Below, piece after piece: positions 2,889 through 59,794 of a stretch of DNA of 64,000 nucleotides. Positions within the stretch are counted from its first letter, which is position 1; each line of letters opens with the position of its first letter. The stretch spans positions 5,202,236 to 5,266,235 of the forward strand of contig FN649751.1 of NCBI GenBank assembly GCA_000310025.1. The letters run 5' to 3'. Position numbers and translations under genes: made by a program. Origin of the DNA: Ectocarpus siliculosus. Its lineage: Eukaryota; Sar; Phaeophyceae; Ectocarpales; Ectocarpaceae. Under the pieces are notes generated by a model that saw nothing but the letters and a program-made list of their open reading frames with translations, did not search any database and was not told the DNA's origin.

Positions 2889-2956
<68 letters not shown>
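2889..2956 (+). repeat. (TC)34 dinucleotide microsatellite upstream of eIF2-alpha
   Basis: An uninterrupted TC run of about 68 bases ends 120 bases before the eIF2-alpha start codon. It may lie in the promoter or the 5' UTR. Pyrimidine-rich leaders are common in translation-factor genes, but a pure dinucleotide array this long is likely to vary in length. Confidence 0.95.
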
Positions 2957-2959
<3 letters not shown>

Positions 2960-3076
2960 TTAGCCCGACCCCCCATCACCAGACCGCAGGGCAGACAAAC
3001 AGCAGCGGCCCTCGTCGCTCCTCACACTCCCTGCTGTTCCGCACCGCATCCCACCACCACCAGCAGCAGCAGCCCG

Positions 3077-6000
3077 ATGGCGGCACAAGTGGTAGTACCG
3101 CCCGTGCAGGGCAAGGCAGAGATGGCTCTGGACGCGGCCCGCGTGTACGCGGAGGAGGAGGCCAAGCGGAAGAGGCTGGAGTGCCGCTTCTACGAGGCGC
3201 AGTACCCCGAGATCGAGGAGGTGGTGATGGTCAATGTGCGCAACATCGCGGAGATGGGGGCGTACGTGGTGTTGCTCGAGTACAACGACATCGAGGGGAT
3301 GATTCTCCTGTCGGAGCTGTCTCGCCGGCGTATCCGGTCGATCAACAAGCTCATCCGGGTTAACCGAAACGAGGTGGCCATGGTGCTGCGTGTCGACAAA
3401 GAGAAGGTACATACTACTGGTAGAAATTTACTACAACAGCAGTTACGGGGCGTTTTGATTTGAACCAACAGGAACGACAGAGGAACGACATTATTACCTG
3501 TTGCGCGTAACTACAGGCAGCTTCTGCGCATCGGTAGTCTTTGCCTATGCCTAGAGGGGCAAACAGAGAACAAGGGCATGGGAGATCCCGCTGGTGCTGG
3601 TCCGCGTTGGTTCTTCTTGCCCTACGCTGGCTTCCCACACAACGTCGTATTCGGAGGCATGTGTACCTACAGGAGAGCAGGCTCACCGAAGCCATCCCCA
3701 TCTACTGTAAGGGATACGCATACTTTATCGCGCTCAAGCCGTGCTTGTTGCAGCGGTACAGGGTGCTTTCCTTTCCGTTCCGTGTGCCCGTGTTCAAAAT
3801 CGCTGCTAGAGAAATCCCTACAGCCGCCAGCGCAAACGCCAATGGGCGATGATCAAGTCGTAGTCGTTTCTTACGAGTGACATATTGAAGGTGATCGGTA
3901 GACTCATCAGGGCAGCTGTATACCGGATGTGACATTCGGCTCGTCTCATCAGTATTGTACCATTATGGTCAAAATGTGTGTTACACCATCCTCGGTATTG
4001 AGTGGGACGAGGCGTACAATAGAAACTACGCCAGAGTATAATGCATGTGGCAAACAAAAGCCGGTACCAGTATAAGGGAGCTGGGGCAGACTCGGGAATC
4101 ACATGTTCACATATATGGCACGGAGGCTCGTGGAATCACCCGCCTCACGCACTTCGGTGGCGGCGTCTGTTGTATGTCTGAACATTCGCCTTAAGCTTTG
4201 TCCATTGATTCCAGGAAACCTGAAATCACGAAGGCAGACAAATGCCCGAGGAGAATCAGTCTACCACCTATCTTTGACCCCGCCGTACCACCCTCGCCTA
4301 ACTACTCTTTGAAGAGTGCTCTGCCGCTGCGTCTTTCATGGGGTGTGGTTGCAACTGAATGTGTTCTCTCGCTTTGTGGTCATTCCGCGACGCTCAGGGT
4401 TACATCGACTTGTCGAAGCGGAGGGTGAGCCCGGAGGACGTGGCGAAGTGCGAGGACCGATACAACAAGGCGAAGGCGGTGCACAGCGTGCTGCGCCACG
4501 TCGCCGACCTGAGGGGCCTCGTGCTCGAGGACCTCAGCACGAAGGTCTCCTGGCCGCTGTACAAGAAGTACGGGCACGCCTTCGACGCGTTCAAGCTCAC
4601 GCTGCAGGACGAAGAGGACGTGTTCGTGGGGCTGGACATCGACGAGGAGACCAAGCAGGCGATGATCACGCACATCAAGCGCCGGTTGGCACCGCAGCCG
4701 AGCAAGGTGGGTTTTGTGTTTCCGCTGGGTTTTACGTTTTTCGCCACTCGTTTGTCGAGTCTGCGCAGCGTTCGACTTTGCGGCACACGCTGTACCTGCC
4801 GTTGTTCCGTCCAAGCGGTATTTGGTGGCTGAGCATTTGGTGCTGCTGTAAGATGGCACATCAGACGAAATTATCTTAAGGTTGGTTGTGTGTCACCACC
4901 ACCGTCACACAATCACGAACACAGGTGCGCGCGGACATCGAGGTCACGTGCTACACGTACGAGGGGATCGACGCCGTGAAGGCGGCGTTGATTGCAGGGA
5001 AGGCCGTGGGGGACGAGAGGACGCCCATCCAGATCAAGCTCATCGCTCCCCCGCGGTACGTGATGGACACCATGACGCTGGACAAGGACCTGGGGAAGTC
5101 GGTGCTGGAGAAGGCGATCGAGGTGGTGACCGAAAAGATCATCGAGTCGGGGGGGAAGCTCGAGGTGAGCGAGTGGCGGAGTCGGTTGTCGGGGATCGGT
5201 TTTGTGTGTATGCTGGTTGTTCTTTGTTGAATTTTTATATCTAGAGTGAGGCTGCTGCTGCCGTATGCCAGTCTTGGACACTTGAGGAGGCATTTCTTCT
5301 CGGTCGAGATCCCTCTAGTTTTCAGGGTATGATGGTGCGTAAGAAGCAAATCGTTTCTTGGGTCGTCATACAGTGGAGAAGAAACCTACTCGCTCGTGTT
5401 TTTCATTGTGTGGAGCCTCTTGTGCTTTTGGTGTTGGTCTTGTGTTTTGCGTTTCTCCCCGAGTGTTGAGACTGATCTGACATTCTTGCTCTTGATTTGT
5501 CAGTCTTGATCTCACATGCGACCATGGAAGGAAGTGCATGGGTGTTCCTTGAAAGGGTAAAAGAGGTGTTGGATACAAGCCAACGACTTTGGTGTTTGAA
5601 GATAACAACAACAACCGATCTTTGACAACCGGTCAAGTCGTGTTTTCAGCACGTATCTAACAGCCCGCTGCCTCGAAGGACCAAGGTGCCTCCTAGAGCG
5701 CATTCAGCCGCGTTGTGCAGCCTCTCGTTTACACCCGTGAGCTCTGGCAGTAACAAACGTACTCTGTTCATCACATGCGTCCTTTGGGTGGCGTGGAGGA
5801 AAGCTTGGCCGGTGTGCACAATTTCCAGCCAAGCGCAGCTGACGTGGCGATGAGCGACCTCTCGTCTCTTGCCATACTATTGGAAACGCGCCTATGCATC
5901 GAAGAGCGTTGTTGTTATGCTGGCCAAAAGTGATTACACATCTCACTTCCCCCCTCTGCTTGGTTTCGTCCGGTACCCCTAAACGTGACATGACACGTGG

Positions 6001-38932: not shown

Positions 38933-38936
38933 ATGA
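38916..38936 (+). promoter_or_regulatory. Six-codon upstream ORF overlapping the helicase start codon
   Basis: An ATG at 38916 opens a frame of six codons (MKRGVA) whose TGA (38934-38936) overlaps the ATG of the helicase (38933-38935) as ATGA. If the leader is transcribed here, ribosomes that translate the short frame would terminate on top of the main start, a layout known to allow coupled reinitiation. Whether the leader includes this stretch is inferred. Confidence 0.5.
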
Positions 38937-39444
38937 CCCAGGGGTCTAGGTTCGGGGGAAGGAAGAGCCCCAGCCCCGGCCCACCCCGCTCGGAGAGTCT
39001 TCAGCAGCAGCCGTGGCAGCAACCTGGACCGCCTGTGGTTGGGATGGCGTCGCTGACCGAACAACAACACCAGCAGCAGCAGCAGCAGCAGCACCCAGCG
39101 CTTTTCCAGCAGCAGCACCCAGCGCTGGTCCAGCAGCAGTCAGGGCCACTAGCGGCGATTGGGATAGCAGGAGCCGCCGCGCTCCAGAACAATATGGTGG
39201 CCCATCCGCAGCAACCGCTCCCCGTGACTCGAGGCCCCGCGGTGGTGGTGAGTCCGCGAGCACTGCTAGCGGCCCCCGGGGCGGCAGTGCGGGGTCCAGG
39301 GAGCCCTTCGCCGCCCTTGTCGCTCGAAGGGTGGCCCTCTCTGCAGGCGGCGATGGCAAGCTTGGCCCCCGGGGCAACGGTCGGAGGCCCTCCTCGCGCT
39401 CTTGCGAGTCCTCCGCCACCCCCAGGAGTCATTGGCGGGGCTTG

Positions 39445-39502
<58 letters not shown>

Positions 39503-42500
39503 GCGCCGTCGATGCAGATGCAGCCACACATGCAGCAGCATCACCCGCAGGTTCGAATGCAGCCATATTTCCCGCCACAGCAAGTTTTCCCGCAACCTCA
39601 GCGGCAGATGCAGCCTTTCCCGCAACAGCAACAGCAGCTGATGCCGCCATCCAGCATCCCCATGGGGCCTGCGATGTTCAACCACCCCCCCGCGCATCAC
39701 TTTCAGCACGTGGGCATGGCTCCGGGTTTCGTGCCCATTCAGCAGCAACAACAACAACAACAGCCATTCCAAGGGCAGATGGTGGGGCCGTCTCAAGCCT
39801 TGTACATGGCGCAGTTGCCGGGGGGGGCGCAGATGGGGCGGGATCAAGGGCCGGCTGCCAACGAGCAACACACGATGTGGACCCTCAAGCTGCACAGGCG
39901 GAGGATTGCGGTGCTGAAGAAGCGGCGACGGGCAGAGGCGGCAACCGGGGCCCAGCCAGCAGCAGTCGCGCCGCATCCGGGGGAGACGGACGGGGCGGGG
40001 TCTCCTGATTGTTCCCCCGCGTCGCCCAGTGGGTTCCGCCCCTTGCCGCTGGGCTCGAGCGTCGGGGATGACTTGGGACACGTTTCGAGCAAGCTTGACC
40101 AATGGACTGTATCTCTCGGGGGAGCGCTTGCCTCCAACACGGAGGTCAGTAACTCTTGCCGTGGGTTGTGTTGTTGGCGTGTTTTGGTTCTCCATCGTTT
40201 TTTCTTGCACGCGCGTGGTGGTGGTGGTGGTGGTGGTGGGGGGGGTGCTAAGGGGAGGGGGATGTTTGCTTCTCGTAACACCCTTGGGAGGCAGTAGTAG
40301 ATTCGCCTTTTCGGTATAATCGTCCCCCTTTTCCTTCTTCTAAACCGGCATTTGCGCTCCGTCTGACCGGAAGGTGTGCGATTACGTCACGAAAGGCAAG
40401 TATGGCGTGGTTCTGAGCCTCGGAGAGGACCCGGAACCGCCGGTGGTCGACTTCGGCGACGTCGCCACGGTGGTTCCGTCTCCCCGAGAAGGAGGGAGGG
40501 GGGGGGGACGCGGACAGCAGCCTCTAGCTGAAAACGGGGAGGACCAAGCGGCCGAGCGACCCTCCGAGTGGGGGGCGACGCAGCACGACGACTCCGTGTG
40601 GGGGGCGGGGTGGGGGCAGAACGGACAGCAGACGCTCGGAAACGGCGGGATGCAAGGGCGAGAGGACCGGGACGAGGAGGAGGAGGACGGCGAATACCTT
40701 CCGCAAGGGTGAGAAGTTTTTTTTTGTTGTAGTTTGTCCTCCTCCGGTGAACAGAGGGCTTGCTGGTGTTGCTCCGCTACTGATTGGTGCGCAAACAATC
40801 AAACGCGCTTGTTTTCGCCGTTTCCTGGCTAAATACCCAACGTCTGGCGCGCTGGTGGAGTGAATGAGTAGAGAAGCAGGGGTGCAGGGCAGGGCGAGGG
40901 GGGTGAAGAGGGTGAGAGGTAGCCAGTGACGCCTTTACCGGTTAAACCTTTTGCCACCCGTGCCTCTTGCATCGTGTAAAGCCTTGGCATGGCGCAGTCT
41001 GGACGATATTGAGAACGACGATGTCAGTCGATGCATGTAACTACCCGAATAAAAACACGCAAGTCTTGATTATGCTCCGCCGTGCAATACCACCGCTACA
41101 TGCATCAATAGCTGTACAGTCGCCGTAGACACCCACATTGCGGCTTACTTACTATGTATCCAAAACACGATTCCTGGCAGTCGATTGATTTTAACACCTC
41201 CGCCGCCGCCGCTCCCCGTCCGTGTGCCCGATCGTCCCTCTGCCGCCCAACGCTCATCACAGATACAACTTTTCGAGAGAACGGCGGGCGGTCATGCACC
41301 CCAAGCAGCAGCAGCAGCAGCAGCAGTCTTCTTCAAGGGGTCGAGGGCAGGACGGCGTCACGGGCAGCACGGGAGGGGCCGCCAAGGTCGAAAGCACCCC
41401 CAGCATAAGCTTCGGTGATTTCGAGGGACGGGCTGCTCACTGGGAGGACGAAGAAGACGACGATGACGATGAGGACGGCACCGGTGGGTCGACCGGCTCG
41501 GGCAAGGATGACGTCGCTTCCGGGCCTGGGGACGCGTTTTCTCCGAGAAAGGGGGACACCCAGATGGGGGAGGAAGAGGGCGGCGAAGGGGAGGAGGAGG
41601 AGGAGGAGGAGGAGGAGGATGTGGCGAGCGTGGTGCGGACGCTGGAGTTGAACAACTTCAGCAACAGGCGTGTCTTCTTAGAGGTGAAGCACCCCACGTT
41701 TTTTGTGTTCCGCGTCTCCTCCCCCCGGCTTCTTTTTTTGTCCTCGGCTGTCGTCCTTTTGCGGTGGGAGGCGCGTGCGTGATGAGCGTGTTTTGGGCAC
41801 CCCGGCAATAATATTACCGCACAAGCACGCGGAGGAGACCTAACGGCTTACAGGACGTATCTCGCTGGGTTTGCGCTCCGTGTGCGATGCTTGGCGCACC
41901 AACAGGACTTACGGCTGATGCCTAGGGACGATGCGGGAAGAGCACCCCCCTTCATCGTGAGGATAGGCAACGAGCTAGACTCGTCTCTGCGGCACACGCA
42001 AGAGGAGGAGGGGGGTCGCAGACGGTACAGCTTGGCACCGGGGACCCACTTGGAGGTGGAGGTGGAGTTCAACCGTCAAAATCAGGTACAACTAAATGTG
42101 TCTTTCGGTTGATGTGATTGTGGAAATCAATCACCAAAATCAGACACATGCTGTTCTTTGTTGTTGAACAAATCGTCTGGTCTGGGCTCTACGGAGCTGG
42201 ACGCACCACGGTGTGGAAACTGTCCCCCAACCTTGACGGGGTGTACGCCTGCTGCTCTGCCGTCCGTGTGCGTAGCTCTCTATCCGTTTCGCTGTCTCTC
42301 CATTCCGCCATTCATTCCTACCGTCTTCCTCACGCTCGCGCCCATCTGGCTGTCTTTTTCTGTCTCCGACGCATTCCTCGACCACAGGCAGGGTTCTGCG
42401 GAAAGTGGCTGACGCTCGCGCTCAGCGTCGTCGATCCCTCGCCACCGAACCAGCCGCTCCTGCACCTCGTGGATCGCGTAGAGCGGACGTTCGTGCTTGG

Positions 42501-44667
42501 AACCAGGTAACCACACCACTGCTGTTCTCCATTTTCACCTCTTCCACCACGTGTCGCATAGGATACCACGAGGGCGACGTCTAGAACCGCTGCTGGAAGG
42601 TTCCATGTGTGACATGATATGATTCCGCTCGTGCTGCAGTCTGCGTCGAGCAACTGGCCGTTGGTTGGGGGGGGGGCGGGGTGTTGTCACAGGATGTATG
42701 ACGCGCGTCCCCCTTCCTAGCCAGCACCGGCAGAGGGAGAAGATGTTCGAGGGGAAACAATGAGTGCCACGGGGGGCAACAGCTCGAGGAAGGGGCGATA
42801 GAAACTGCTGGCCGCGCAAACCCCACCACTCCGTGGAAGTTCATCTCATCGTTTCGGGCCTCTCGGGCATCCACGAGCAACCCAGTATTAGGAACAGCAG
42901 CAGTTGAGGAAGCTACATTCGTACTCGGCAACCTGGCTTGTACGTTTTGATGGGAAATCCGCCCATCCGAAAAAGAAAAAAAGACGCACACACACACACA
43001 GGTCTAACTACAGCAGGCAGGGGGGGGGGGGGGTGTACTCATAGTCGTGCATGCCGTAGTCGTTTGACCATTGACCTCGCATCCCTACAAAGCCGGGACG
43101 GAGCACGCCGGGTTCTCACCGGACCAGGCTCTCACATCACCAAGCGCGAAGCGCCGTGAGGTATTTGGCGAGTCGCATGAAGGGTGAGCTGCATCCTGCT
43201 AAGGGTGTTCGGCATCTTGTGCTTACTTCCTTGCGTACGGATGACAGCTGCGTATGACTTAATTTATTTTCTGGTGCTTTCACTTCCAGAGACAGTTATA
43301 AGCACTGTGTAACTGCCTCGAGGAAGCTTGACCATTTTAACACAACGTGGTGCGATCATCCCCCGTTGCGCGGAGTGAGGTTTCTCGACCCCGCACAACA
43401 TGATCTACTCGACCACCATTATGGTTACCGCCAAAAAAAAAAAAAAACGAGGTAAAAAAAAAAAAAACGGTAACCTGGTTGCCGAGTTCACGAAGTGAAT
43501 TGGCTTCTTTTACAACGTCTTTGCCAAGCGACGAAAACCCAACCCCGATGGCAAACACCGAGTGGGGGGCTTGTTTTACAACGTCGTTGCCAAGCGACGA
43601 AAACCCAAACCCCGATGGCAAACACCGGGGGGGGGGGGGAAGCAGGGGGGGGGGGGGNNNNNNNNNNNNNNNNNNNNNNNNNNNNNNNNNNNNNNNNNNN
43701 NNNNNNNNNNNNNNNNNNNNNNNNNNNNNNNNNNNNNNNNNNNNNNNNNNNNNNNNNTTGGAACCGGGTAACCACACCCGGGGGGGGGGGGTCATCCGAC
43801 TCTCTGCCGGCCCTATCATGGTCTTGACGATACGGATTTGTTTTTGGGGGGGGATAGGCAACTCACGGCAGATTACGGTCTACCCGCCGGCGTGCTACAC
43901 CACTTGGCACGAACCCTGGGTTGCGATCTTCGAAACTCGACACCATCTGGACAGCAACAGGCTTTGTACCCATACGCAAAAGACACTATGATGGCAGCGA
44001 GTGCTTCTTGTGAAACCCGTCGTCGAAACCTTTCCGCCACCGCTACCCGGCTATTATTTCGTCTCTGTAGACTCTTGGCCCAGGCGGTGGACGGCCGTGC
44101 CGCGGCGGTCCTCAGCGCCGAGGCGAGGCGTTTCTTGCCGGCCGCTCACCGCGAGTGGTTCAAGAATCCCGTCAAGGTAACCGCGGGAACGGGTGGGGCG
44201 CAGCTCGTGCGGAGTTGGAAATAGTTTTGGGGGTTCGGGGTGGGGGTGGGGGGGGGTTACTGGCTCTGTGAGAACCAGAAAGTCTGTTATTTTTCTGTTT
44301 TTTGGAGGAGGAGGGGCCCTGTGATGCGGCTTTCTGTCGTAACCTTGCCGGTTCTGGAATGCTGGTGGTACGGTACAAGAACCATTTGGCCTGGCGGTAT
44401 GATACACGAATTATATGGCGCCGGAGCCGCGGCTTCCTCTGTTGGTTTGCTGTGTTCGTGCTATTCTGCCTGAATTTATGCCTTCTTTGCCAAGTCCAGG
44501 GCTCGCAGCAAGCGGGTTTCACTTCTTCGATTAACGTGCGCGCGATATACAACTGACATAAAGCCGTACCGTTGGCACAAGCTTTCCAAGCACGCAGCTG
44601 ATTCCGTGTGTTCCACGGAAGCAAAACCCCGTTCGACTCGATGCCTCTCTGGTGCCGGGCTTCTCAC

Positions 44668-44700
<33 letters not shown>

Positions 44701-47700
44701 TGCCGCTTCTGCTGCCGCTTCTGCTGCCGCTGCAGGGTGTTGTGGCGACCCCTCGAGCCAACAACCCGTTCTATCTCCCGCGGCTCAGATCGTTGGACGT
44801 TCTGGAGTTTGAGGTGCCGGAGGCGGTGCAGAAACGGTTTCTGCAGTGAGTGTGTTGCAACGAGGTCTCATTTTTTTTGTGCCTCCGATCTCGGGTGATG
44901 CGCATCGGTGCAACGTTGGTCGTGCTGTCAGCCAGCCACGCGCACTCGTTGTTGGTCCCAGCCGTGTGGCGCAGGCTGTGTCAATTTCGAGAGCTTGGCA
45001 GGGTCGGTGTGCACGAGTGCTCGCCGGTTTGTGTCGTTCCGTTCAGATGTCGCCCGCGTATAGTATTACACAGTATGACTCGACACAGCAGGACTGCATA
45101 CAGTACATACCAAAAGAAAAACGCGCGGCCGCGCCGGCAAAAACAGCTCATTGCCCGGGCAATAGTCAAAACCTTTTGCATTTTCACCTTCCACACGCAG
45201 GGTTAGACCGCGCTGGCAAAAACAGCATATGGCCCGGGCAATAGCCAAAAACCATTTTCACCTTCCGTACACAGGGTTAGCAGTAGTTGCTCGTGCTGTT
45301 ATTCAATACTGGTACCAGACACCCGGTGACACAACCCTTTTCCGCACACGGCCCGCCCCGTTCCGCCCTGACACAACGCCACGTCACTGCCAGGGGCGCG
45401 GAGTCGAGAGTGCCGTGGCTGGTGCGCGACCACCGGGAGATCATGGCCCTGGCCGGGGTGGAGGTCGGCCCCGGACGGCTGGACGACTACGTCGCGAGGT
45501 ACTCGGCCCTCATGTGGCTGGAGGAGAGCCAGATGTCCTGGGACGTCCACCAGTACGACCTGCACGACGTCAGGGTCACCCTGGACTCGAGCCGCTACCG
45601 AGAGGGTGACCCCTCCACCAAGTGAGGGTGGTGTGTTGTTCGTTTCTGGCAGCTGCTGCCGCCACCGCCAGCTGTTGTGTCCGCTCTGTCTTTCTATCTG
45701 GCTGTCTGGCGGTCTGTCTGTTGCGCTTTGGGGAAGGTGGAGTGCGTCGGTGGAGTTTTGATGGGTATCATTTTTGCACATCTCCACGTTTTCGTGTATA
45801 TTTTCCGGTTTGGAATCCGGGGGGCGCCGTGGGGCGTTTCGTAACCCCGTCCGGGGGGCAGGAAAGCCTACGAAAGGCGGTCGGAAAACAGACCAATTTA
45901 TGTTGGCACCCAGTGCTCGCCTCACAGGAACGTGTTTGCATTAAAACCTTCAAGGCTGTATGCTCAGCTCTTGGGAACCAATTATGAGCAGCTAGGGTAG
46001 AGTATGCACCCATCACGCGTGGTTATACTAGGATTCCGTGTGCAACTTACAATTAGGATTGGCTGTCTGTATTCAAGGCATACTCTGCGCACGCGCCACT
46101 CTAGTTTATCAAATTTGGCTCCGAGAAGGTCACAGCAATGGAGCTTGCAGCCTCGAAGGTTTGATTACAAACAGGCCTCCTTGGGGGCGAGCACTGAGCG
46201 CCATCGTGAGTTGGTGTGCTTTCCAACCACTTTTCCGCAGTCTTTTCGCTCTCTGTGGGGGTTTTCGAAATGTACCACGGCACCCCCAGATTCAAGATCG
46301 CAAAAATAGTATCTGGCACAGTGGTGCGATAGCTCGTTGCTTGGACGAATCAGCCAATGAATGTAGGCCGCAAAATTTTTGCCTTTGATGGGTACAAATT
46401 TGGGGAAGAACTGCCAACCGTACGGAATCGTTTCACAGAATGCCAGACAAGGTAGCGCCGAGAAGACCGAAGTCTCACCCCCAGGTTTCACAGCTCATCC
46501 TTTCCGCGACGCCGCTCGCGCCTCTGCTCTCCTGCTGCTGTTGTTTGATGTTCCGTACGTAGCATTGTTGGCAGGGTAGAGGTACCGGGTGTGTTGGAGA
46601 GTCGGCCCAGGCTGGCCATGGGCGACGTCGTCCGACTAAGACCGCCCGCTCAAGCGAAGGCGGGTGCGAAAAAGGTGTCCAAGGCGAACGGGCAGCATTG
46701 GAACGGCGGCGTTGGCGATGTCGTGAGCGCTGACGGCACCGACGGTTCTCACCAAAAACTGGGAAACGCCCCAGATTTCGAAGTGCAGGTATATGGTGTT
46801 TGGTTGCCCCTGTTGCGATGGCGTTCGTTTTTGAGTCTGGTCTGGATACAGCATCTTTAGTGTTCTTTTTTTCGGCTTTCAGTGTGGTGTTGCTCTAGCA
46901 CCTCGTCGTCGCTTCGTGGCATCAGTTAAAAGTTGTGCGTCCTCTCGTAACTCTTCTATTGCTTCAGATTGCCGTTTTTCCGTTTTTCCGTTTTTTTTTT
47001 GTTTTGCCGGTTCGGTCGAGCGCGGTTGTATCGCATAGAGCGGGCCGTAGGGGGGGTAAGTCGCCGGTGCGCGTGGTGAAGTTGACCAGACCACACCGCC
47101 CGTCCCAATATTTTCGAAGGGCAGTAAGCACCACCATCCACTAGAACAATGCGCACCAGGTACAACGTGTACACCACGAGAATCAAGCCAAACGCCAGAC
47201 TCAAGAGGTGGCCTTTTCGGCAACGGGAAGGTATGGCTCCGTCGCGATTAATGCACGTGGTCAAAAGGAAGACGGAGGCAAGCAACGCACCCTTACCCCG
47301 CCCTTATCTTTACGAGATTTTCTGACTTCGATCCAATAGCGCCTCACTTGCCGTCCGTGGTGCACCCCTGTCCCGCGCCGCCGCCGCACGACCGTCTATT
47401 TGTCTCGCTAGGCCTTAGTGAGCAACGTCAGCTTGTCCCAGGGGGTGGTCACGCTCCTCCTTCCGCACCCCGGCTCGCTCACGGCGGCCTCGTCGTCGAC
47501 GCAGGGCTCCGAGCTCTACGCCAAGACCATCGCGAGGGCCGTCAAGGCCGCGAGGGCCAGCGTACAGGCGGCCGGCGGCGGCGGCCGCCGTAAGAACAAG
47601 GAGGAGGCTGCGATGGACGGGTGGCACTGCCGGTTTCAGCTGGAGCGGCATGGCTTGCAGGTGTGACGATGGGACGAAGTTTACGCGAAACTCCAGGGCG

Positions 47701-50700
47701 CAATCAGTTTGTTCTTGTTTGCGGAAGGGGGTTGATTCTTGTTTGGTTTCTTACGACTTGGTAGGCCCCTTCCGTAGAAAGACGTGGCAGAAGGATCCTG
47801 AGGTCGAGGTAGCTTTAGCCCGCTGTCGAAGGCAGGCGGGTTTCTCCGATGTTTGGGCAAGGAGAGAGGGTCCAGAGAGAGACAGAGACAGAGAGAGAGA
47901 GAGCAGGGCGGTGTCACATGTGGTTCACCTGCTCATGCCAGGAAGTGATATGTGGAAGACCCGTGCATCCGTCAGTGCCCAAGTTCCCATGGTTCTCGGA
48001 CCGCTTCTAAGGATCGATTCTTCCTACACTTTGAACATGTCCACATCGATCCTATGCTTACACACTTCTCTGTTTCTGCGTTGAACGTGTGTTGGTCATG
48101 TTTTGACCTTGGAATGTGTCTGTAACCACATACACAGCGACGGAAAATGGAGGTGCTGGGTAGATAGATCAGAAGGAGTAGTTTAGACACAACAACGATA
48201 CATGGCTTGAGGCATGCCGCGGCATGAACGGTGTTCGGTACCGCTGAGGCCCCTGTAGCGAAACTGCGGTGGCTTCATGATCGTGATTTTTGCGACGACA
48301 GCATCGATTGGTGTATGAAATTGTGACGCTTATTTTTTCATGTTGTGGTGGCGGTGTACGTTTACATTCAGAAGCCGACGATTTTGGCACCCGCGTCGGA
48401 GCCTAAAGTTTCCGTGCATTCGTGAAGTTGGTGGCGAATGTCTCAAAATCGTGTTGTTTTTGTGTTGTATCTAGATGGAACCGCACACAGACGTTTCTCG
48501 ACCCTAAGAACCAGGAGCCGAGTGCGCACGTGACAGAGAAAAGAAAAGTGTCCACTATTAGTGGGAACAGCAGTAGCTTATTTAGTCCTCGAAGAATTTT
48601 CCGGAGAGGCAGGCCGAGGCGCTTCCACCCTCCGCGGTTTGTGTCACCGGTCTCGTCATGCCTCTTGTTGCCGCCGCTCTTGTGTTCCAATTCCTCCGCT
48701 CGTCCTCGCCTGTTCTCACGATCGTCCATACACTTACCCGTCTCTGGCGCCCGACTTTGCTGCGGTGGTGTTGATCGATCGATCCTGCGCCCGCCGCCCG
48801 TCTCTGGTACGGCCCGCCCAGTTCATCCACTACGCCCTGAATAGGCTGGTGATGTTCGGGGACAGTGTGAGCGGCTCCTCCCCCCTCCGGTACCTGTTCC
48901 CCGAGCCAGAAATGTTGCCCGAGACTCCGCTCTGGGTGAGCGAAGAAAGGGCTTGCAAAGTTGGGGTTCTGCTTGCTTGTGTGGGGGGAAATGGGTTACC
49001 TGCTGTTCAGGGTAGGCCAAGCAAGCGTGTGAGTTCGGTTTGTGGGCGGTAGGGTTGCACGGTGCTCCGGGTGAGCGAGTGGCGTTACAATTGAGGTAGA
49101 TTCATAGATTTAGCCCGCACAGAATTAGGCGTAAGGTGGTCAGCTTGTCGCCGATGGCGGGCAGACTTGGGCTATAGAGGTAAGTTCACGAAAACACGAA
49201 AAATTTCACCCATGTTTGGGTCCTGTTTTGGAACTAAATATCGTAGAGGGCGATGTGGGAAAACCTTATATATATCGACGAGGAGGGTCTGATGTTGACA
49301 TGCCCACTGATGGTCGTGACCATACCCGCCCCTCCCTATCGTCGTTTGGCACAGCCTTCGTCTCTTCACTAGCGCGGCTTTTTTAGAAAGGAAACATACC
49401 CTCACAGAAAGACTACCCCGACTTTTTCGACGGGTTTTGCTGCTGCTGCTGCTGTTGTGGTGTTGTTGTTGGACTGCAGCCTCTTCCGGAGAGCTCATTC
49501 GAGTGGGTCATGCCTTCCACCAACGACTCTCAGAGGACTGCGGTCAGAGACATCGTCACCGGAGCTCACGGACAGGCAAGTCGCTGCACCTCTTGACAGC
49601 ATCCTCCCCGCCCTCCACTTCATCTCGGTCGCCCGGCGCTTTTTTGGAGTGGTGGTTTGCCGAGGCCTACACGCTTGCTTGCTGTTCACGCATGGTAGCC
49701 CGCAGGATGCGACGCCGCAATAGCAGCAAGAGTAGCAGCAACGGCAGCACGGCGACGGCGAAACGCTGCCGAGTACTGTCGTAGACCTGCTGCGTAGAAT
49801 ATCCATGATTCTTATGTATGTTCCGCGGTAAACTCCTCGCTCCATGCTCCCGTTGCCCGCAGGTACCTTACATAATTTTTGGTCCTCCTGGCACCGGCAA
49901 GACGTGCACCGTTATCGAGTCTATCCTCCAACTCGTCAAGCTCAGACCGGAGTGCCGGATTCTGGTGAGGTACAAAGATTCATCATTTGATTGATCGACA
50001 CATATTATTGTACCATATTATTTGATTGAAGTGATACTCTCCTGTGTGCTCGGGGGAAGAGCTTCTGGAACCCCGATGTCGGCCAAGCACGAGTTTTGGA
50101 TACTGCAGGAACGCTGGCAGCGAAACCGTTCAGGGGGAGGGTAGCCTCGCATTGAGTTTGTGTTGCATGTCGAGATGTCGAGAGGCGCTTTCGCGGAGGC
50201 AGCCGTGGATGGGGTGGGGGGGGGTACTCATAGTTGTTTATGCCGTAGTCGTTAGACCATTGACCTCGCATCCCTACAAAGCCGGGACGGAGCACGCCGG
50301 GTTCTCACCGGACCAGGCTCTCACATCACCAAGCGCTAACCCCGTGAGGTATTCGGCGAGTCGCATGAAGGGTGCGCTGCATCCTGCTGAGGGTGTTCGG
50401 CATCTTGTGCTTACTTCCTTGCGTACGGATGACAGCTGCGTGTGACTTAATTTATTTTTCTGGTGCTTTCACTTGCAGAGACAGCTATAAGCACTGTGTG
50501 ACTGCCTCGAGTGTGCTTGACCAATTTAACACAACGTGGTGTGATCATCCCCTTTGCGCGGAGTGAGGGTTCTCGACCCCGCACAACATGATCAAATCAA
50601 CCACCATTATGGTTACCGCAAAAAAAAAAAAAAAAGGCGAAAAAAAAAACGGTAACCTGGTTGCCGAGCTCACGAAGTGATCGGCGTGTGTTACAACGTC

Positions 50701-53700
50701 GTTGCCAAGCGACCAAAACCCAACCCCGATGTCAAACACCGAGGGGGGGGGGAGTCATGGATAGGGGGAACGTTTGATACCGAGCCGTGGCGATTCCTAA
50801 AATACAGAGCGCCGGACACGCGTGCCGCACGTACTGCAGGAGTGGTGTGGATAGCCCTGCTGTTCTGTGCTTTCCGTGATCCGACCCGGGTCATCTTCCG
50901 CCTTGTCCATGCGCGGCATTTGGCGTGGGGCACATGTTCGTAGTTTTAGTGGTGTTCGCTACTACACCGTCCGGCATCTATCTAAAAATAATTGTCATGA
51001 GCCCTGGCGGGTGGACGTCCTTTCTCGCCACGCTTTCCTGCTTGCTGCCTCTTTGCCTGTTTCCTACTGTCGTTCGGTTCTCTCGCCCACCCTCTCTTTC
51101 TCCCTCTATCTCTCCCCCCCTCTCCCTCTCTCTCACGACACGACTGTTCCAGGCGGTGGGACCTTCCGACACCTCTGCCGACGTCATCTGCGAGCGGCTG
51201 TCGAGGCACATGTCTAGGGACCAGCTCGTGCGGATAAACTGGTGGCAGAGGCTGACGGCTGGCGTTCACCCGAACATCCTCTCCTACTGCCCGCAGGTAG
51301 GCCACCACCGGGCGCGGTTCGTCCTGTCCTGCGGCTGCCCTAAAGCCACCTCCCTCCCTTGAAGTGTTGTGCCCTACGGAATAGAGTCAACCTGACCTGC
51401 CGTATGGCACCCCGGTGCGATCGTCTCATTATAGGAGTATTGTTTAGTTCCCCATCCTTCCGGCGCACCCCTGCGGCGCCAATTCGGGGCACCGTGCCAG
51501 ATCAAGGACCCGCCCCGAGCGGAAAATGAAGTAGATCGCTTGCTGTATGGCTTTCAGGTGCACCCCCGTGCGATACAGCTCATGTCGTGCTGATGATTGT
51601 GTTGTCGTTGTTGTTGTACTTGTTGTGTTTGTTTCGATAGCAAGAGGTAACGTTCGTACAAATCAAGCCTGTAGCGACGGCTCTCTCCGTGGCATGCTCT
51701 CTTCCGTGGTTTGACTGGCTGATTGATTTGTTGCCCGGCATCCAGTATTTGCTGCAGATCAAGGGAAGCCCGGTCTTCGAACAGCGCTGACCAACCCAGC
51801 GCGCGAACGTACTCCCTCACCTGCCCCTGTACAATTGTCTGGAGTGGTATGTGGACCGTTCTTTGAAACATCCTTCCTCTCCCGCTCGCTCGTCCTCTGT
51901 TTTTTGTCTCCTTTTTCCGTCTTCGCCGTAAACCCATACCATGGTATCTGTCTTTACCTCGGTCGTTTCAGGACAGCAACCGCGGGATGTTCGTGCCGCC
52001 TTCCACAATCACGCACCAAGTCGTGGTGTGCACCTGCGGGACGGCGGGAATGCTGAGCGTGCTGGGCGTGGACGAAGTGAGTATTCGCCGCATTTTTTCG
52101 GCCCCAACGGACAGTACGCCTAGCGTTGCAGTGCCCTGCCAAATCTGAAGGAACGGGCACGAGATCGCGGCAGTGTTCAATCAACGAGTGGTCCTTTTTC
52201 CATGTTTTCGATACGAGAGATGTATGCCACTTTTGTCCGATGTACCCACAAACGTCATAGGAACACACGGAACTGGTATGGTTTAATGTACAGCCAAGCC
52301 AAGCGGTACATAGCCTATTGTGCGCTTTGGTAAAAAAAATCGCCGCTCCCCACCCGTTTCATCTGTTGTACTACGCGAACAACAATCACAATCACAGCAC
52401 CACCGACCTCGTCCCCACGAACACACCAAACTCTTCGTCCAACTTTTGGAAAAGGGCGCCCTCTCCCCCCCTCCGTCGGCCAAAGCTGGCATCGTACATG
52501 CTTTCGCTTCAAACGACGGAAATAGACCGATAAGACACAACCAACACAGCACAGCAACGAGGGGCACGAAAATCGGCCAGCTTTCAACTTCGGACTCCCG
52601 CTGTCAAGAAACGTCAGTTTTGCGGTCCAGGCTTTGCTTCCTTTTTGTGGTCCTCGCTGTCGAGCATGGGTTCCCACTTAAGGTGTAGTGAAGGGTACAC
52701 CCCTGAGCTGGCTGAGTCTTCCCGACCAATCTTTCTATTCTGAGACTCATGTTCTTGAGACAGATTTGTCTTGTTGGTAGTGAGGGTGTCGTTTCTGTCC
52801 AACAAACTGGTCGCCGCTAGGCCGCCTGTTCTTCGTGCCGGTTCGTTCACTGTCCACAATTTTGTCCCGCTCGTGTTAAGTGCACCGCTTGAGGTCGTTC
52901 GTTGAGAAAGGTAGACCGGTAGGGTACGTAAAGTCTGCGAGACTACAATGGCAACCAGTATCAACTGGGGTGACTTTGAAACCGCACGTGCCGTTTCCGT
53001 GACCACCGTGAAACCGTCCAGAATTACTTCACGCACATTTTTGTGGACGAGAGCTCCAACGCCATGGAGACGGAGCTGCTGGTGCCCCTTTCGTACGCGG
53101 GTAGAGCGCAGATTATCCTCTGCGGCGACCCTCGACAGGTGTGTTTGTGTGTTTTTTATTTTATTACCATCGACCGCGCTAACCGGCTGACCAATGAAAA
53201 GCCGTCGGTCTCAGTGCGGTTGAAAACACAAAATGCGTCTAAAGACCACAATCTGAGACCCTGTGACCGAGCGTCATGGGGGAGTCTACGCTACTCTCTA
53301 GATCAAGGACAGATACCGTAGCAATAGCAGAGAAAAACTGCACGTGCTTACCAGGTGTGTGTGTGTGTGCTTTCTTCATTTTGGATCGACGGCTCTAACC
53401 GGTTGACCACGGAAAAGACGTCAGTGAGTCTTGTAGTAGTGGGATAAGAAACGCAAACATGCTTTCGAATAAAAGGGTTCTACCTACAGGGGGGGGGGGG
53501 AATTGGACGCGTGCGTGTGTGAGTACGCAATTGAGTTCTTGCATATACCACGTCCCTCAGTCCTCGGCCTGGGCTTTCGGGTACTCTTGTGTGTGTTTTT
53601 GAGGCTCGAAAATGGTTGCTTGTGAAAATGGTGCTACTTTCAAACGATCTCTCGTTTGTGGCCGTTCTTCCGCGCATTGTGTGGTCTTGCTCTTGCCGGT

Positions 53701-56700
53701 AACGACACGCAGAGGCGCGGAGGGGCACGAAATTAGGGGTAGGGCTAGGGCAGAGGTAGTACCAACCCTCCCGCAGGGAACCAGGAATCAAGGTCGAGCC
53801 CCGCTTGCTGATGCGAAGCCAAGTCGAGCTTGTCTATTGCGTGGGTGGGACTTGGAACGTGGCTTTCGCCCCTGAGCCTCTGCACGTTCAAGCACCAGCC
53901 TCATTTTATTCCAAACTGGTACTTTCGTACCAGGACCCGCGTTGGCGCACTCCATACACAACCCCCATCAACCTGCTCTTGTTGCGAGATCTTTCCGGCA
54001 GCGTCTGCTGCTAGGCTTAGCTGGAAGTGTTGCAATTTCACGGCTCCCGCACAAGCTTTTATAGCAGCGTCACTCCACCTAGGGTGATGCGTACGCACAC
54101 CAACATTCAACGAACGAGGTGCTTGAGAAACAGCGAAATTTGTCGTGTCCTGCCAACTGCTGCCTGTTGTTTTTGCACTTTAGCTCCAAAAGACGATATA
54201 ATAGTGTTGTGTTGGAGTACCAGGGGGTTCTCGTCAGTAATCAGTTAGCCCTTTCGTGCAGTCAAAGGTTCTCTTTCTCTTTTTGGCTGCAGAAGATGCC
54301 GGGACCCGCACACAGTGGCGCCACAGCAAGTACATGTATGTGTACGGGGGGTGGACTCCCTCGAACAAACTCACTTGGCTGTTGTTTTTTCTATGACCCG
54401 TGTTTTTCTTTTCTTTGTTCCCCCGTGTCTTGCCAGCTCGGCGCGGCTGTTCGAAGTCCTGCCGCAAGAGCTCTCGGGCTAGAGGTCTCCCTGCAGGTGG
54501 GAGATACAGAGATTGCTTGTTTTTGCGTGAAATTGGGGGTGCAAAAGTGGTGCTATCCGGTGTTTTTTTCGGTCGACAGCAGTGTCGCACGTCGTGCGCA
54601 TAGCTTCGGACCTGATGCTGGGGATGGGGTGCTTTGTAGGCGGCACAGAAATCGGGCCCGGGCGTGTCCTTTGTTTGTTGTTATTGCAGTGCACGCCACG
54701 ATGGCCTCGCAGTTTTCTAGGGTACTGACACCTCGCATTGTCCACGGTGCCTCCTTTGTGGGCTTAGGCTTTTCGGGATTGACCAAGAACAGTGTGGGGG
54801 TAGAGCCGAGACGTCCGGCTCGAATATGGATGTGAATTGAAATGGCCCACAAATAGCACGACCACTCGAGAACAGCGGGTAGTATTCCTTGAAACGCACG
54901 CCCAGAAAAACAATGCAAGGAAGGACTGAGCGAGAATATATGATGGGGTCGAGCCCAGTACTCCAACGCGAAAGCTGAGTCAAACACACACAAGGAGCTA
55001 GACTAGGGTGCATACCGCCATTGATTATGCCAATGCACCTGAAGAAGCGATTTTTGCACCCTTGCGATTCGTCGAAGAGTTGATCAACGAGGCGGGACAG
55101 GCCCACCTCAGCCCCCCCCCCCCGGGGGTGGGAGAAGAGCTCTCCAAATCACATCGAAAATAAAGAAAAAATACCCGTTGAACCACCTCACGCTCGCTCT
55201 GTCTTGATCGCGGTGTCCCCGCCTGCCTTTTTGTTATTGGCCTCCTTGTCCCCCACGCTCACTCCTCCGCGGATTCTTGATCGCCAGTCGACGTCGCGCG
55301 CACCAGTTCACCCTCGCTTGTTGAAACGCGGGTGGAAATGTTCTCGTCACTGTTTCATGTTCTTTGTTGTTGCAGGAGCGGCTAATGGAACAGGAGATGT
55401 ACTCGAAGCACGCCCAAGCCCCGACGGCACTGTCGAGTGCGACCTCTAACGGAGCGGCTGACGTAAGGTATACTCCATGCTGTTACACACGTAGAGGTTT
55501 GCGGAATGCTATCTTGTGCTACTACCGTTGCTGCTGCTCCTGCTGCTGCTGCTGTTGGTATTGCTGCCGATGGCTGTTTAGTGCGTGGTGATTCAACAGG
55601 TCAAGTACTTCGACTCTCATATTTTTTCGCGCGCCCTCCTGGCAGACAGAGTGTTGGGATTCATGACCGTTCTACAATCTAGTCTAGATGGTGCCCCACG
55701 AGTTCGTACCCGAAACAAACTGAGAACAAGGCGTTGCTGGTGTACATTTCAGGGGAGTCGATAGTGTTTTTTCGTGTGGTTTGACCTCGGGTCGGGGATG
55801 CGTTTAGATAGTGATTTGCATGGTGTGTTTCTAAATGTGCATCGATTTGGTTTGTGGAGGGTCGTTTCCCCTCGTACTCTCTCTCGTCGAGTTGACCCAG
55901 AGTTTGCCACATAGCTTTGTCGGTCGTGCATGCACCAACTAACATAGGCGTGACTCTCCCCTCCCGCCCGACCCATCGAACGCTGTTTAGTTTATCAAAG
56001 GTAGCTCGTAGCAGAGAGATGAGAGCACCTTCGAAGCACTGCTAGTTGCCGACCTAGAACAACCTGCCTGCCCTCCCCCTGACTGACCCTCAGGCTGCCC
56101 GCACAAACCATGGAGTGTCTCCCTCCTCCTGGAAGAACCTCAACCCGTGGTAGAAATGTGCAACACATCCTTCACGCAGATGCCGTTGCCGGCTAGTAGA
56201 CCGCCTCCCCTCTCCTTGCTTAACGCCGGCCATGTCCGCTACCCGTCGTCCGGTGGGCGCTTGCCTTCGCAGATGTATGACCCAGCTCCTCAACAACTAC
56301 CGAGCCCACGAGGTCTTGCTGACCCTCCCTAGCGCCATGTTTTACGGGGGGAGTCTCGTGAGAAGCGCGGAGCGGTCGCAGACGGACAGCATGCTGACGT
56401 GGGAGGAGCTCCCCGAGACGAAGGCCTTCCCGCTGCTCTTCTACGGCATCCAGGTTAGGGTCAGGAAATATTTTTTGAGAGTTCGTGTTTTAGGTCAGGC
56501 TTTAAGGTATTGGTCATTCAGGTTAGGCTACGGCTGTATGCATTGTACAGCAGGAGACTACTACTGTAGTCTTGAGAGGAAGCTCTTCGATTCGTGTCAG
56601 TTTTGTCCTTCTGCGGACCCATCCATTTCATGGGTAGTCTCTAGGATTACGAGTGGTGGTCTTTTAGGCTTAAGAAGTGATACTTTCAGATTCGGGTTTG

Positions 56701-59700
56701 GGTGATCTTTTCAGGTTAGGGTGGGGAAACAAGGGTTAGAGCTTGCGGAGAAATCTTGTTCCCCGCTCACGCACAGCAAGATATTCTGGAGTAGTGGCGC
56801 GTTGTTTACTTTGCGTCTCGAGCGCGCCCAAGCGTGGTTGTAAACTTGGACTATTATAGTACGCGATACCTTCGTGATGAGTGCTCTCGTGAAATTTTGT
56901 TCAAGTATTGCTCGGACTGCAGTTGTATTTTTCGTTTGGCGTCTCTCTCGGGCTGACACGGGGAGCCTTGGCTAAGGTGCAGATGTCTCTCGTGCGGGAT
57001 GACAATCACGGGGGCCGCCAAGTCTCATTGGCTTCCGCGGGGACTCGGACCGTTTCCTTCGTCTAGACAGAAAGAAAACCAAAGGTTGTGGCCAGCCGCG
57101 AGCGACACGATGTACAGGGAACATTGTTCTGAACGTTTTGTAAGAACTTAAGAACGTCGAACGCCCATGTCTCTCGTCTCTCTGTCGGTAACCGTTGTTC
57201 TGACCCCCCCCCCCCGCCCCCCCCGCTCTCTCCCCCATGTTGACCGTGCCCCTTTGTTCGTTGTCCTTGTCGCTGCCATGCCAACGACGATTCCCAAAGG
57301 GCAAAGACCTGTCCCCGTTGGACTCCCCTTCGTTCTACAATCCGATCGAATGCTCCAAGGTAACCATTCCCTCCTTCGATCACCTCCTTCTGGAACAATC
57401 CCTGCCATCGGTTGAGTCTTCAGCGGGACAAGGTCGCATTGATGATAGTGGCGTGGGTGAAAGCTTAGGCTTCCCCCGCTGCATTTTTCAGCTGTATCTC
57501 TGCAATGATATTCGACTCATTTTGCTTCGAGGCGCTTGGAAGAGACACGCTGGTACACCGATCGCCGGTTTCGCGTCTGTATCTTGCGGCGTCGGTTCGT
57601 GCATCGGCAATGCGCACGTGCCTTTTGCGTCTCGAGGTACAAGAGCGGCCAACGTTCATCAATTCTGTTGTTTTTGAGAGGAAGAAGGCTTTGCCCGTTC
57701 CGTCCCGTCCGGCGATTTGCTACATACGGGGTGGTTTACGGGGTGGTTTCCGTTCTTTTGCTTTTCTCGTCGCTCCCCGGGCCTGACCAGGTGATGGAGA
57801 TTATCCAGGTGCTGCTGGCGAGCCCAAAAGTGCAAGTTTCTACCGGAGACATCGCCGTCATCTGCGCGTTCCGCATGCAGGTACGGTGTTCGATGCCTTC
57901 GGTGTGTTGTTTGTTGCCGGAGAACCTATGTACCTTTGACGGAGATTGTGCGGGGGAGGTTTACTATTGACCATGAGCCACGCCCATCTCGATCGGTTTT
58001 TCGAAGAGTTGAACCCGCACGTGTTGGAGATATATACCCGTTCTGTCCATCGTGTCCATTTTTCAAACAATCGCAATTCGGTAGGGGACCTCAGGGAGAG
58101 GAACCCTTCTGTGTGTGACCACGGGTTGGAGCAAACGGCATGCTGTAAGCACTGATTGCGGTGAAGACAAAAAAAACAAAACGTCTAGGGTAGGGATGGT
58201 CGCCAAATGCGCGCCAACGCAAGTCTACCCACATTGGCTTCTTGCACACACCCTACACCCGACTTAACCTTGTCTAACGGGAGACGGGGCTATCTGTGCT
58301 TACCCCGGTGAACCGTAGCGGCCGAAAGAGAGAACGAGAGACCGGAATAATGTTGCGAAAAATGAGGGATGAGTAACCAAGAATTGGCCTCGATGACGAC
58401 TTGAACGAACATGTGAACACAGTAGAGCTGGTCCGACCAGCGTCAACAACAGCCGCTTGTTTTGTTGAAGCCACGGCGTTTGACAACGGTTGTTGCTTCG
58501 TGGCAGATGCCCTTGCGCTCACGGTCTGGAAGCCTTGTTGTTGCGACAGTCTCCACCCCCTGCATCTGCATCTCCCCCCACCCCCCGGAGCCGTAGTCGG
58601 CGCACGCACAGGATTTCCAGACGGCTTGGTGCGTTACGCATTTCCTGTAACGACAATTACCCCCTGAACGTATTGAACGCCGTTTGTCGGCGGCAGGTGT
58701 TGAGGCTCAGGAAGCTGCTCAGGGACAACAACCTTGGAATCGTCAATGTTGGCCAGGTGGGTGATTGAATTGGCGTAGAAACGTGAGTGTATAGAGGTTG
58801 TTTCGGTCCAGAGGGGGTAATATAAGGTGGCAATAATCTGCGTTAGAAAAATGACGAGTACGTCGAGAAGTATCCCTAACACCATGAGCAGTTACGAGTA
58901 AAACAGCCAGGCGGTATAGTCCTGAGTGAAAGGCGCTTGTTTTCTGTCACAAGGTTACGTGGACAAGACAGAAGCGTGCCCTTTGCTCGCATAGCCGTCG
59001 GTATCCGATCCGCAATACAAAGGGGGTGAGGTGTCGGTAATTTCCTGGTGTTTTTGTGTGTAGCTCATGTTTCGCACTCTGGCATCAAATGTAGGCGCAG
59101 CTCACCATGCAGATTGTTACTGGGGAAAATCAATCGAGCCTTTTACACCACCAGCAAACAAAAACATCGACCAAAACCATCCCACACACACACCCGAAAG
59201 GTGGAAGACTTCCAGGGCGGCGAGAAAAAGATCGTCATCATCAGCACCACCCTGTCCAAGAGACACCGGGTGGAGAAGGAGGGCAAGATCGGCTTCCTTG
59301 GCGACCCCAAGAAGTTCAACGTGGCCCTCACCCGGGCCCAGGCGCTCGCCGTTGTGGTGGGAAACCCCAACCTGCTGGCCGGGGAGGAGTACTGGAAGGA
59401 GCTGCTCATGTTCTGCAAGGAGAACGACGCTATCCGAGGCTGCGCGTGCCCTGCTCTAGAGGTAGGCATGCGCCTGCGCCGCGGGGACCTTACGTCCCAC
59501 CTGCGAGCTCTATTGGCTCACCACAAGAAGTTTCTGGGGCGTGTTTTTGATCCTTGTCGTTTTTCGCGGGACTCGTTGTCATTCTCTATCACCCCCACGT
59601 CCCATCACAACACAAATTTCTCAAGCTTTTTTTTTCTTTCCTGCGAGCAGGTGGGAGGGAGGGAAGACGAGGCCAGCTTGGTCGACGCTGTGCTCCAGCA

Positions 59701-59794
59701 GAGCTTGCTGGGGGGGGGAGGGATGGATCTCATGTACCCGGAGCACGGCGACTTCTACGATCAAGACGACCTGCAATGGAGGGTCATGCTCTGA
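38933..59794 (+). CDS. MOV10/SDE3-type SF1 RNA helicase with long Q-rich, WG-bearing N-terminus
   Basis: About 24 exons: 38933-40144, 40374-40708, 41263-41683, 41854-42085, 42388-42506, 44071-44176, 44736-44845, 45394-45621, 46575-46788, 47412-47660, 48822-48935, 49480-49575, 49863-49964, 51153-51296, 51972-52076, 53022-53138, 54437-54496, 55376-55467, 56273-56453, 57300-57359, 57791-57880, 58697-58756, 59201-59461, 59651-59794; roughly 1,615 residues. Exons 1-3 are disordered: Gln-rich (19-Gln run), Pro-rich, WG motifs, acidic runs. Exons 4-11 match the MOV10 beta-barrel region ([31 protein letters not shown]). Helicase motifs: Q-like [14 protein letters not shown] (~1152); Ia [18 protein letters not shown] (~1271); [50 protein letters not shown]. 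Family members unwind RNA 5'-3' in silencing, mRNA decay and transposon control. All junctions keep phase except exon 3-4. Intron 12 is GC-AG. The start is the first in-frame ATG of exon 1. Identification as MOV10/SDE3 is strong. Confidence 0.93.
39446..39502 (+). repeat. (CAG)n tract coding for 19 glutamines
   Basis: Eighteen CAG codons and a final CAA in frame within helicase exon 1 encode a polyglutamine run. Shorter CAG/CAA runs occur at about 39061-39115, 39610-39640, 39739-39765 and 41305-41330 of the same gene. The near absence of CAA interruptions suggests recent, length-variable expansion. Confidence 0.95.
43020..43657 (+). repeat. G-flanked intronic repeat, copy 1 (helicase intron 5)
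   Basis: A G14 run opens the element, then TGTACTCATAG, TTTGACCATTGACCTCGCATCC and a body that stays nearly identical to copy 2 at 50216-50752. Inside are two A-rich runs (about 43432-43446 and 43455-43468) bracketed by GGTTACCG and CGGTAACC, which are reverse complements. The last ~57-base segment (TACAACGTC to CAAACACCG) is duplicated in tandem with a 66-base period (43511 and 43577). It ends in G runs at 43627-43639 and 43645-43657, then a gap. The class is unknown; no coding capacity was seen. Confidence 0.85.
43658..43757. other. 100-N assembly gap inside helicase intron 5
   Basis: Exactly 100 N follow the second terminal G run of repeat copy 1. Sequence resumes with TTGGAACCGGGTAACCACACC and another 12-G run (43780-43791). 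No exon of the helicase is missing, because exon 5 (ends 42506, phase 2) joins exon 6 (starts 44071) in phase. Confidence 0.97.
44667..44735 (+). repeat. CTG/CTT-rich tract forming the 3' end of helicase intron 6
   Basis: About 68 bases of CTG repeats with CTT and CCG interruptions run straight into the CTGCAG acceptor of exon 7. The tract takes the place of the usual polypyrimidine stretch. A shorter CTG/TTG tract does the same before exon 12 (49436-49479). Confidence 0.85.
50216..50752 (+). repeat. G-flanked intronic repeat, copy 2 (helicase intron 13)
   Basis: This ~537-base copy begins with a 9-G run and TACTCATAG and ends CAAACACCGA plus a G run. It is collinear with copy 1 over its whole length with scattered substitutions and small indels, mostly in the A runs. 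It carries only one terminal ~57-base unit where copy 1 has two. It lies between the Walker A exon (13) and the motif Ia exon (14). Confidence 0.88.

Follow-up and report, generated by a model that had tools for sequence, protein, structure and literature searches.

Does a brown algal helicase carry its own docking site for Argonaute (AGO)? The question is raised by a gene in the 64,000-nucleotide stretch of Ectocarpus siliculosus DNA analyzed here (the window; contig FN649751.1, positions 5,202,236 to 5,266,235). There, a preliminary description made from the letters alone had noted a cluster of tryptophan-glycine pairs in exon 2 of a MOV10/SDE3-like helicase and had read it as an Argonaute hook. 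The gene model was built from open frames and splice consensus alone. Its 24 exons join in phase throughout and contain no internal stop, so that the reading frame of the cluster is secure, and the introns are of the GT-AG type with a single exception, a GC donor behind exon 12. The parts that matter for the argument, all placed by the gene model, are the following:

38933..59794, + strand, gene of a putative SDE3/MOV10-like SF1 helicase, 24-exon model, 1,599 aa
38933..40144, + strand, exon 1, Q/P-rich N-terminal region with CAG tracts
40374..40708, + strand, exon 2, which carries the WG cluster
41263..41683, + strand, exon 3, a short Q tract and a long acidic stretch
49863..49964, + strand, exon 13, Walker A (GPPGTGKT), also placed by Pfam
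53022..53138, + strand, exon 16, Walker B region (a segment of 11 residues), also placed by PDB matches
59201..59461, + strand, exon 23, the last of the helicase exons and the query for paralogues
59651..59794, + strand, exon 24, the C-terminal 47 aa, with one Trp and zero GW/WG

The apparent GC-AG intron (CAG/GCAAGT, at 49575-49576) lies directly upstream of the Walker A exon. An uninterrupted CAG tract of 18.7 units is found in exon 1 (39446-39501), and its length is expected to vary from strain to strain. Introns 5 and 13 each hold a copy of a repeat about 0.55-0.6 kb long (43022-43635 and 50211-50750), 90-98% identical over most pieces and 89% and lower in the last one; the first copy is followed by 100 N, and the pair is probably a transposable element. 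Elsewhere in the window, the ORF at 2924-3457 codes for an S1 RNA-binding domain (E 4.9e-10) and presumably resembles the start of the translation initiation factor eIF2 alpha.

The core of an SF1 helicase is present, with AAA_12 (E 5.1e-36) and AAA_11 (E 7.5e-27) both over the Pfam cut-off. The helical and beta-barrel domains of MOV-10 were recovered in the correct order by a sub-region search, at E values of 0.011 and 0.0072 that fall under their curated cut-offs, and no accessory-domain model in Pfam other than these two matched the helicase. In the PDB, 19 distinct sequences were matched at E <=0.001, of UPF1-like helicases, the best being UPF1/NAM7, IGHMBP2 (SMUBP-2) and SEN1. These closest matches, together with the position of both MOV-10 domains under their cut-offs, are what could be invoked for a different UPF1-like SF1 helicase that is not a MOV10/SDE3 orthologue, in which case the comparison with the SDE3 hook would be misplaced. 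We consider this highly improbable, since the two MOV-10-specific domains stand in the right order and place with no rival accessory-domain model. As for the PDB, the 19 matches do not include a MOV10 chain, and MOV10 could therefore not have emerged as the best one. Judged by its domains, the gene very probably codes for an SDE3/MOV10-like helicase, and the context given in the preliminary description is thus supported. A single SDE3/MOV10/Armitage homologue, Esi0216_0047, is listed for Ectocarpus by reciprocal best match in Table 2 of PMC4513859, and our gene is probably Esi0216_0047 or its orthologue. Members of the MOV10 family are described as functioning in post-transcriptional silencing (PMC6769256).

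The cluster itself was found as claimed. Exon 2 encodes three WG pairs within 15 residues, at W470, W480 and W484 (inside a segment of 19 residues, itself part of one of 33), and the further GW that had been placed at about 39330 in exon 1 is there as well:

39329..39334, + strand, lone Gly-Trp in exon 1 (EGWPSL, aa 133-134), Trp codon at 39332
40569..40574, + strand, W470-G471, TGG GGG
40599..40604, + strand, W480-G481, TGG GGG
40608..40616, + strand, G483-W484-G485, GGG TGG GGG, Trp codon from 40611

An additional GW (DGWHC, aa 1046) is located in the helicase part of the protein. W470 and W480 are indeed 10 positions apart, W480 and W484 are separated by 4, and W470 and W484 by 14. However, the spacing of hooks that had been attributed to the first two tryptophans fits them less well: the TNRC6 site is described as having “ten or more” residues between Trp (PMC9262622), and with 13 residues in between W470/W484 suits this better than W470/W480, which has nine. 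One published rule calls a hook from at least three motifs, each of sufficient Wsearch score (PMC10991848). Exon 2 has exactly three, to which the lone GW of exon 1 can be added, so that, by number of motifs and leaving Wsearch scores aside, the helicase sits at the threshold for a hook call. For one AGO, two or three Trp are given as enough by the same source.

The setting of the cluster appears to be disordered. The charge-hydropathy score was below 0 in all of the 11 windows with centers from aa 451 to 701, which predicts disorder, and among the 36 residues around the cluster there are only 2 from the set VILMFYC, along with 7 G and 5 Q. The preliminary description was right about the disorder, but not quite about a Q-rich neighborhood, as the long poly-Q tracts belong to exon 1 and to the beginning of exon 3, while the surroundings of the cluster are G/Q-rich. 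A single-sequence structure model of exon 2 had a mean pLDDT of 58.4 and no secondary structure, which, coming from one sequence, is weak evidence. A folded domain within exon 2 was rejected given this poor model and the Pfam search, which returned zero matches up to E 10.

Relatives of the helicase were also sought. The viral contigs yielded 36 pattern stretches and 0 relatives, and among the matches listed for the genome contigs (at least 595 pattern stretches) there were 15 loci with prokaryote titles and no eukaryotic orthologue; these loci are uninformative for the hook because the N-terminus is disordered. Three further loci of the same genome match the helicase (38-46% identity over 53-81 aa), but the similarity is confined to the last helicase exon, and they cannot test the Trp residues.

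The lack of an Argonaute in the genome had been named as one result that would speak against the hook. We searched the genome (189,456,909 bases in 492 contigs) for Piwi domains, with scores computed for the best candidates only, and an AGO locus was found in which key residues of pockets 1 and 3 are kept, so that this objection does not apply. The six Piwi-domain matches fall inside 4.6 kb of one contig (C2) and thus make up one detected AGO locus among the candidates scored. This agrees with the single AGO published for Ectocarpus and five other brown algae (section 5 of PMC12867755). The best matches of its PIWI exons are human AGO3 and AGO2 (best E 1.2e-43), far better than the chains of the PIWI clade. 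In the numbering of human AGO2, to which worm positions were converted by a constant offset of 143, the algal protein retains K660, L694, E695, Y698, C691, P700 and P590 and has Ala in place of F659 and Thr in place of V591. The pocket assignments of L694, Y698 and V591 are our assumption. Pocket assignments were otherwise drawn from PMC5147811 and PMC9262622, and mutation of the worm equivalents of K660, E695, P590 and F659 is reported to abolish GW182 binding (PMC5147811). By these correspondences, F659A and V591T are predicted to alter Trp pocket 2 of the algal AGO, and pockets 1 and 3 look usable. A Trp of the algal PIWI domain (SMDRWVSRH, locus L007, contig C2, ~6873539) lies at most one residue from the place of the Trp that fills pocket 2 in plants, in the AGO10 sequence register that we assumed for placing it against position 732. 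If that register is right, pocket 2 may be closed in the algal AGO too, perhaps in parallel with plants. The plant residue, Trp at AGO10 position 732, is described as occupying pocket 2, and all three Trp pockets are said to be conserved in animal AGOs only (PMC12477606).

The weight of the cluster depends on how easily it arises by chance, for which we used shuffles and 88,556 bases of the genome, a cluster being defined as at least three G-flanked Trp inside 20 aa. Amino-acid shuffles produced it in 0.31% (exon 2), 0.17% (first 645 aa) and 0.44% (whole protein) of cases, and dinucleotide-preserving DNA shuffles of exon 2, with stops allowed, in 0.19%. Only 2 of the 935 six-frame ORFs of at least 60 aa have one, namely, exon 2 and a second ORF, which overlaps with the AGO locus. 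Enrichment of GW/WG across the whole protein was rejected (5 of 22 Trp G-flanked, P 0.38), and in the first 645 aa an excess is not clear (4 of 8, P 0.095). All four Gly codons of the cluster are GGG, versus 60 of 155 Gly codons gene-wide (probability of four GGG 0.02 with the codon usage of the gene and 0.05 with that of exon 2). Runs of at least 5 G are dense on the coding strand: exons have 2.9 per kb and introns 2.3, compared with 1.5 for the window. CAG, GTG and GGA arrays lie in the neighborhood. The cluster is thus rare, and yet, as four of its four Gly codons are GGG, an accident of G runs in a low-complexity exon is possible. The WG pairs would then come from G-rich runs of the coding strand in a fast-evolving exon and have no binding role, the helicase working in silencing or elsewhere via other contacts. 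The GGG codons, the G runs, the neighboring arrays and the missing overall excess all point that way; at odds with it are the shuffles that keep the composition or the dinucleotides of exon 2, which yield the cluster in just 0.19-0.31%, and its occurrence in a family of helicases for which a hook is known from plants. We give such an accident a little less than an even chance.

Docking on AGO stands about level with it. The hook proposed by the preliminary description is in this sense partly supported: the sequence makes docking plausible, although we hold it only tentatively, and it is the likeliest of the functional readings, with a functionless cluster about as likely. It is favored by the rarity of the cluster in shuffles (0.17-0.44%), the predicted disorder, the correct sequence of the MOV-10 domains and the residues of pockets 1 and 3. 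Weighing on the other side are the absence of a protein-wide GW/WG excess, the uniform GGG codons, the F659A and V591T substitutions and a similar cluster in 1 other of the 935 ORFs, and also the C-terminal place of plant SDE3 hooks, when the C-terminus of this helicase has no GW/WG. Besides, the three WG pairs are the least number that PMC10991848 accepts for an AGO hook. Alternatively, the tryptophans could be there for a different surface that binds Trp, for instance that of CNOT9 in the CCR4-NOT deadenylase, or could work as aromatic stickers through which the protein enters RNA granules. GW182 is reported to use the Trp pockets of CNOT9, the UPF1-like helicase HELZ is described as working through CCR4-NOT (PMC6769256), and the cluster is flanked by long Q-rich and acidic disordered stretches; nothing specific speaks against this alternative, which we nevertheless rate as quite unlikely.

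If AGO docking is the right reading, the exon 2 cluster would be a minimal, independently gained docking motif in the disordered N-terminus of an SDE3/MOV10-type helicase. Two of W470, W480 and W484 would occupy pockets 1 and 3 of the PIWI domain, the helicase would thereby be tethered to a loaded RISC, and the target RNA could then be unwound or cleared of protein. What we infer here comprises selection on the tryptophans, AGO binding through them and the effect of docking. Brown algae evolved complex multicellularity separately, and the broader proposition would be that, in a lineage that has a single AGO and lacks GW182, a minimal hook was independently grafted onto the SDE3/MOV10 N-terminus, turning the helicase into a RISC adaptor; this full version we regard as rather unlikely. 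Were it true, the hook on the helicase would be the first candidate adaptor of the pathway, with a simple mutant test, and a separate origin of the SDE3 AGO hook, located at the opposite terminus. Ectocarpus ago mutants are reported to have strong developmental defects with transcript levels little changed, and translational repression has been proposed with its mechanism left open (section 12 of PMC12867755). A helicase acting as adaptor could help to explain these defects in spite of the nearly unchanged transcripts.

Among known systems, the Argonaute-binding domain of GW182/TNRC6 resembles exon 2 in having its Trp in a disordered Q/G-rich region, with a spacing able to bridge two AGO pockets, but it has several sites, no helicase and no sequence match to exon 2. 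A sequence link to TNRC6 was rejected: the exon 2 peptide gave 11 matches in the PDB up to E 10, none of them a TNRC6 chain. They were of the WD40 or RCC1 type throughout, the best at E 0.0017, and were dismissed as chance, resting on strings such as one of 11 residues. The survey of PMC4513859 reports no TNRC6/GW182 homologue found in Ectocarpus, and for Esi0216_0047 the accessible part of that article makes no mention of WG motifs. The words “helicase,” “MOV10” and “GW182” have zero occurrences in the main text of PMC12867755. No hook in an algal MOV10/SDE3 appears in the open-access titles and abstract beginnings listed. The closest parallel is Arabidopsis SDE3, whose AGO hook, reportedly the work of Garcia et al. 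in 2012, is C-terminal. Both proteins combine a MOV10/SDE3-type helicase with WG/GW pairs, but here there are only three pairs, they are N-terminal, and the C-terminus has none: an Arabidopsis-type C-terminal GW/WG extension is lacking, and exon 24 has no Pfam match. In green plants, hook-bearing SDE3 is reported in Asteraceae and Brassicaceae only (PMC10991848), and given this limitation to two families, a true hook in Ectocarpus would have been gained independently, and at the other terminus. The presence of hook and helicase in one protein is thus not new in kind, as Arabidopsis SDE3 illustrates; any novelty would lie in the N-terminal position and in the lineage.
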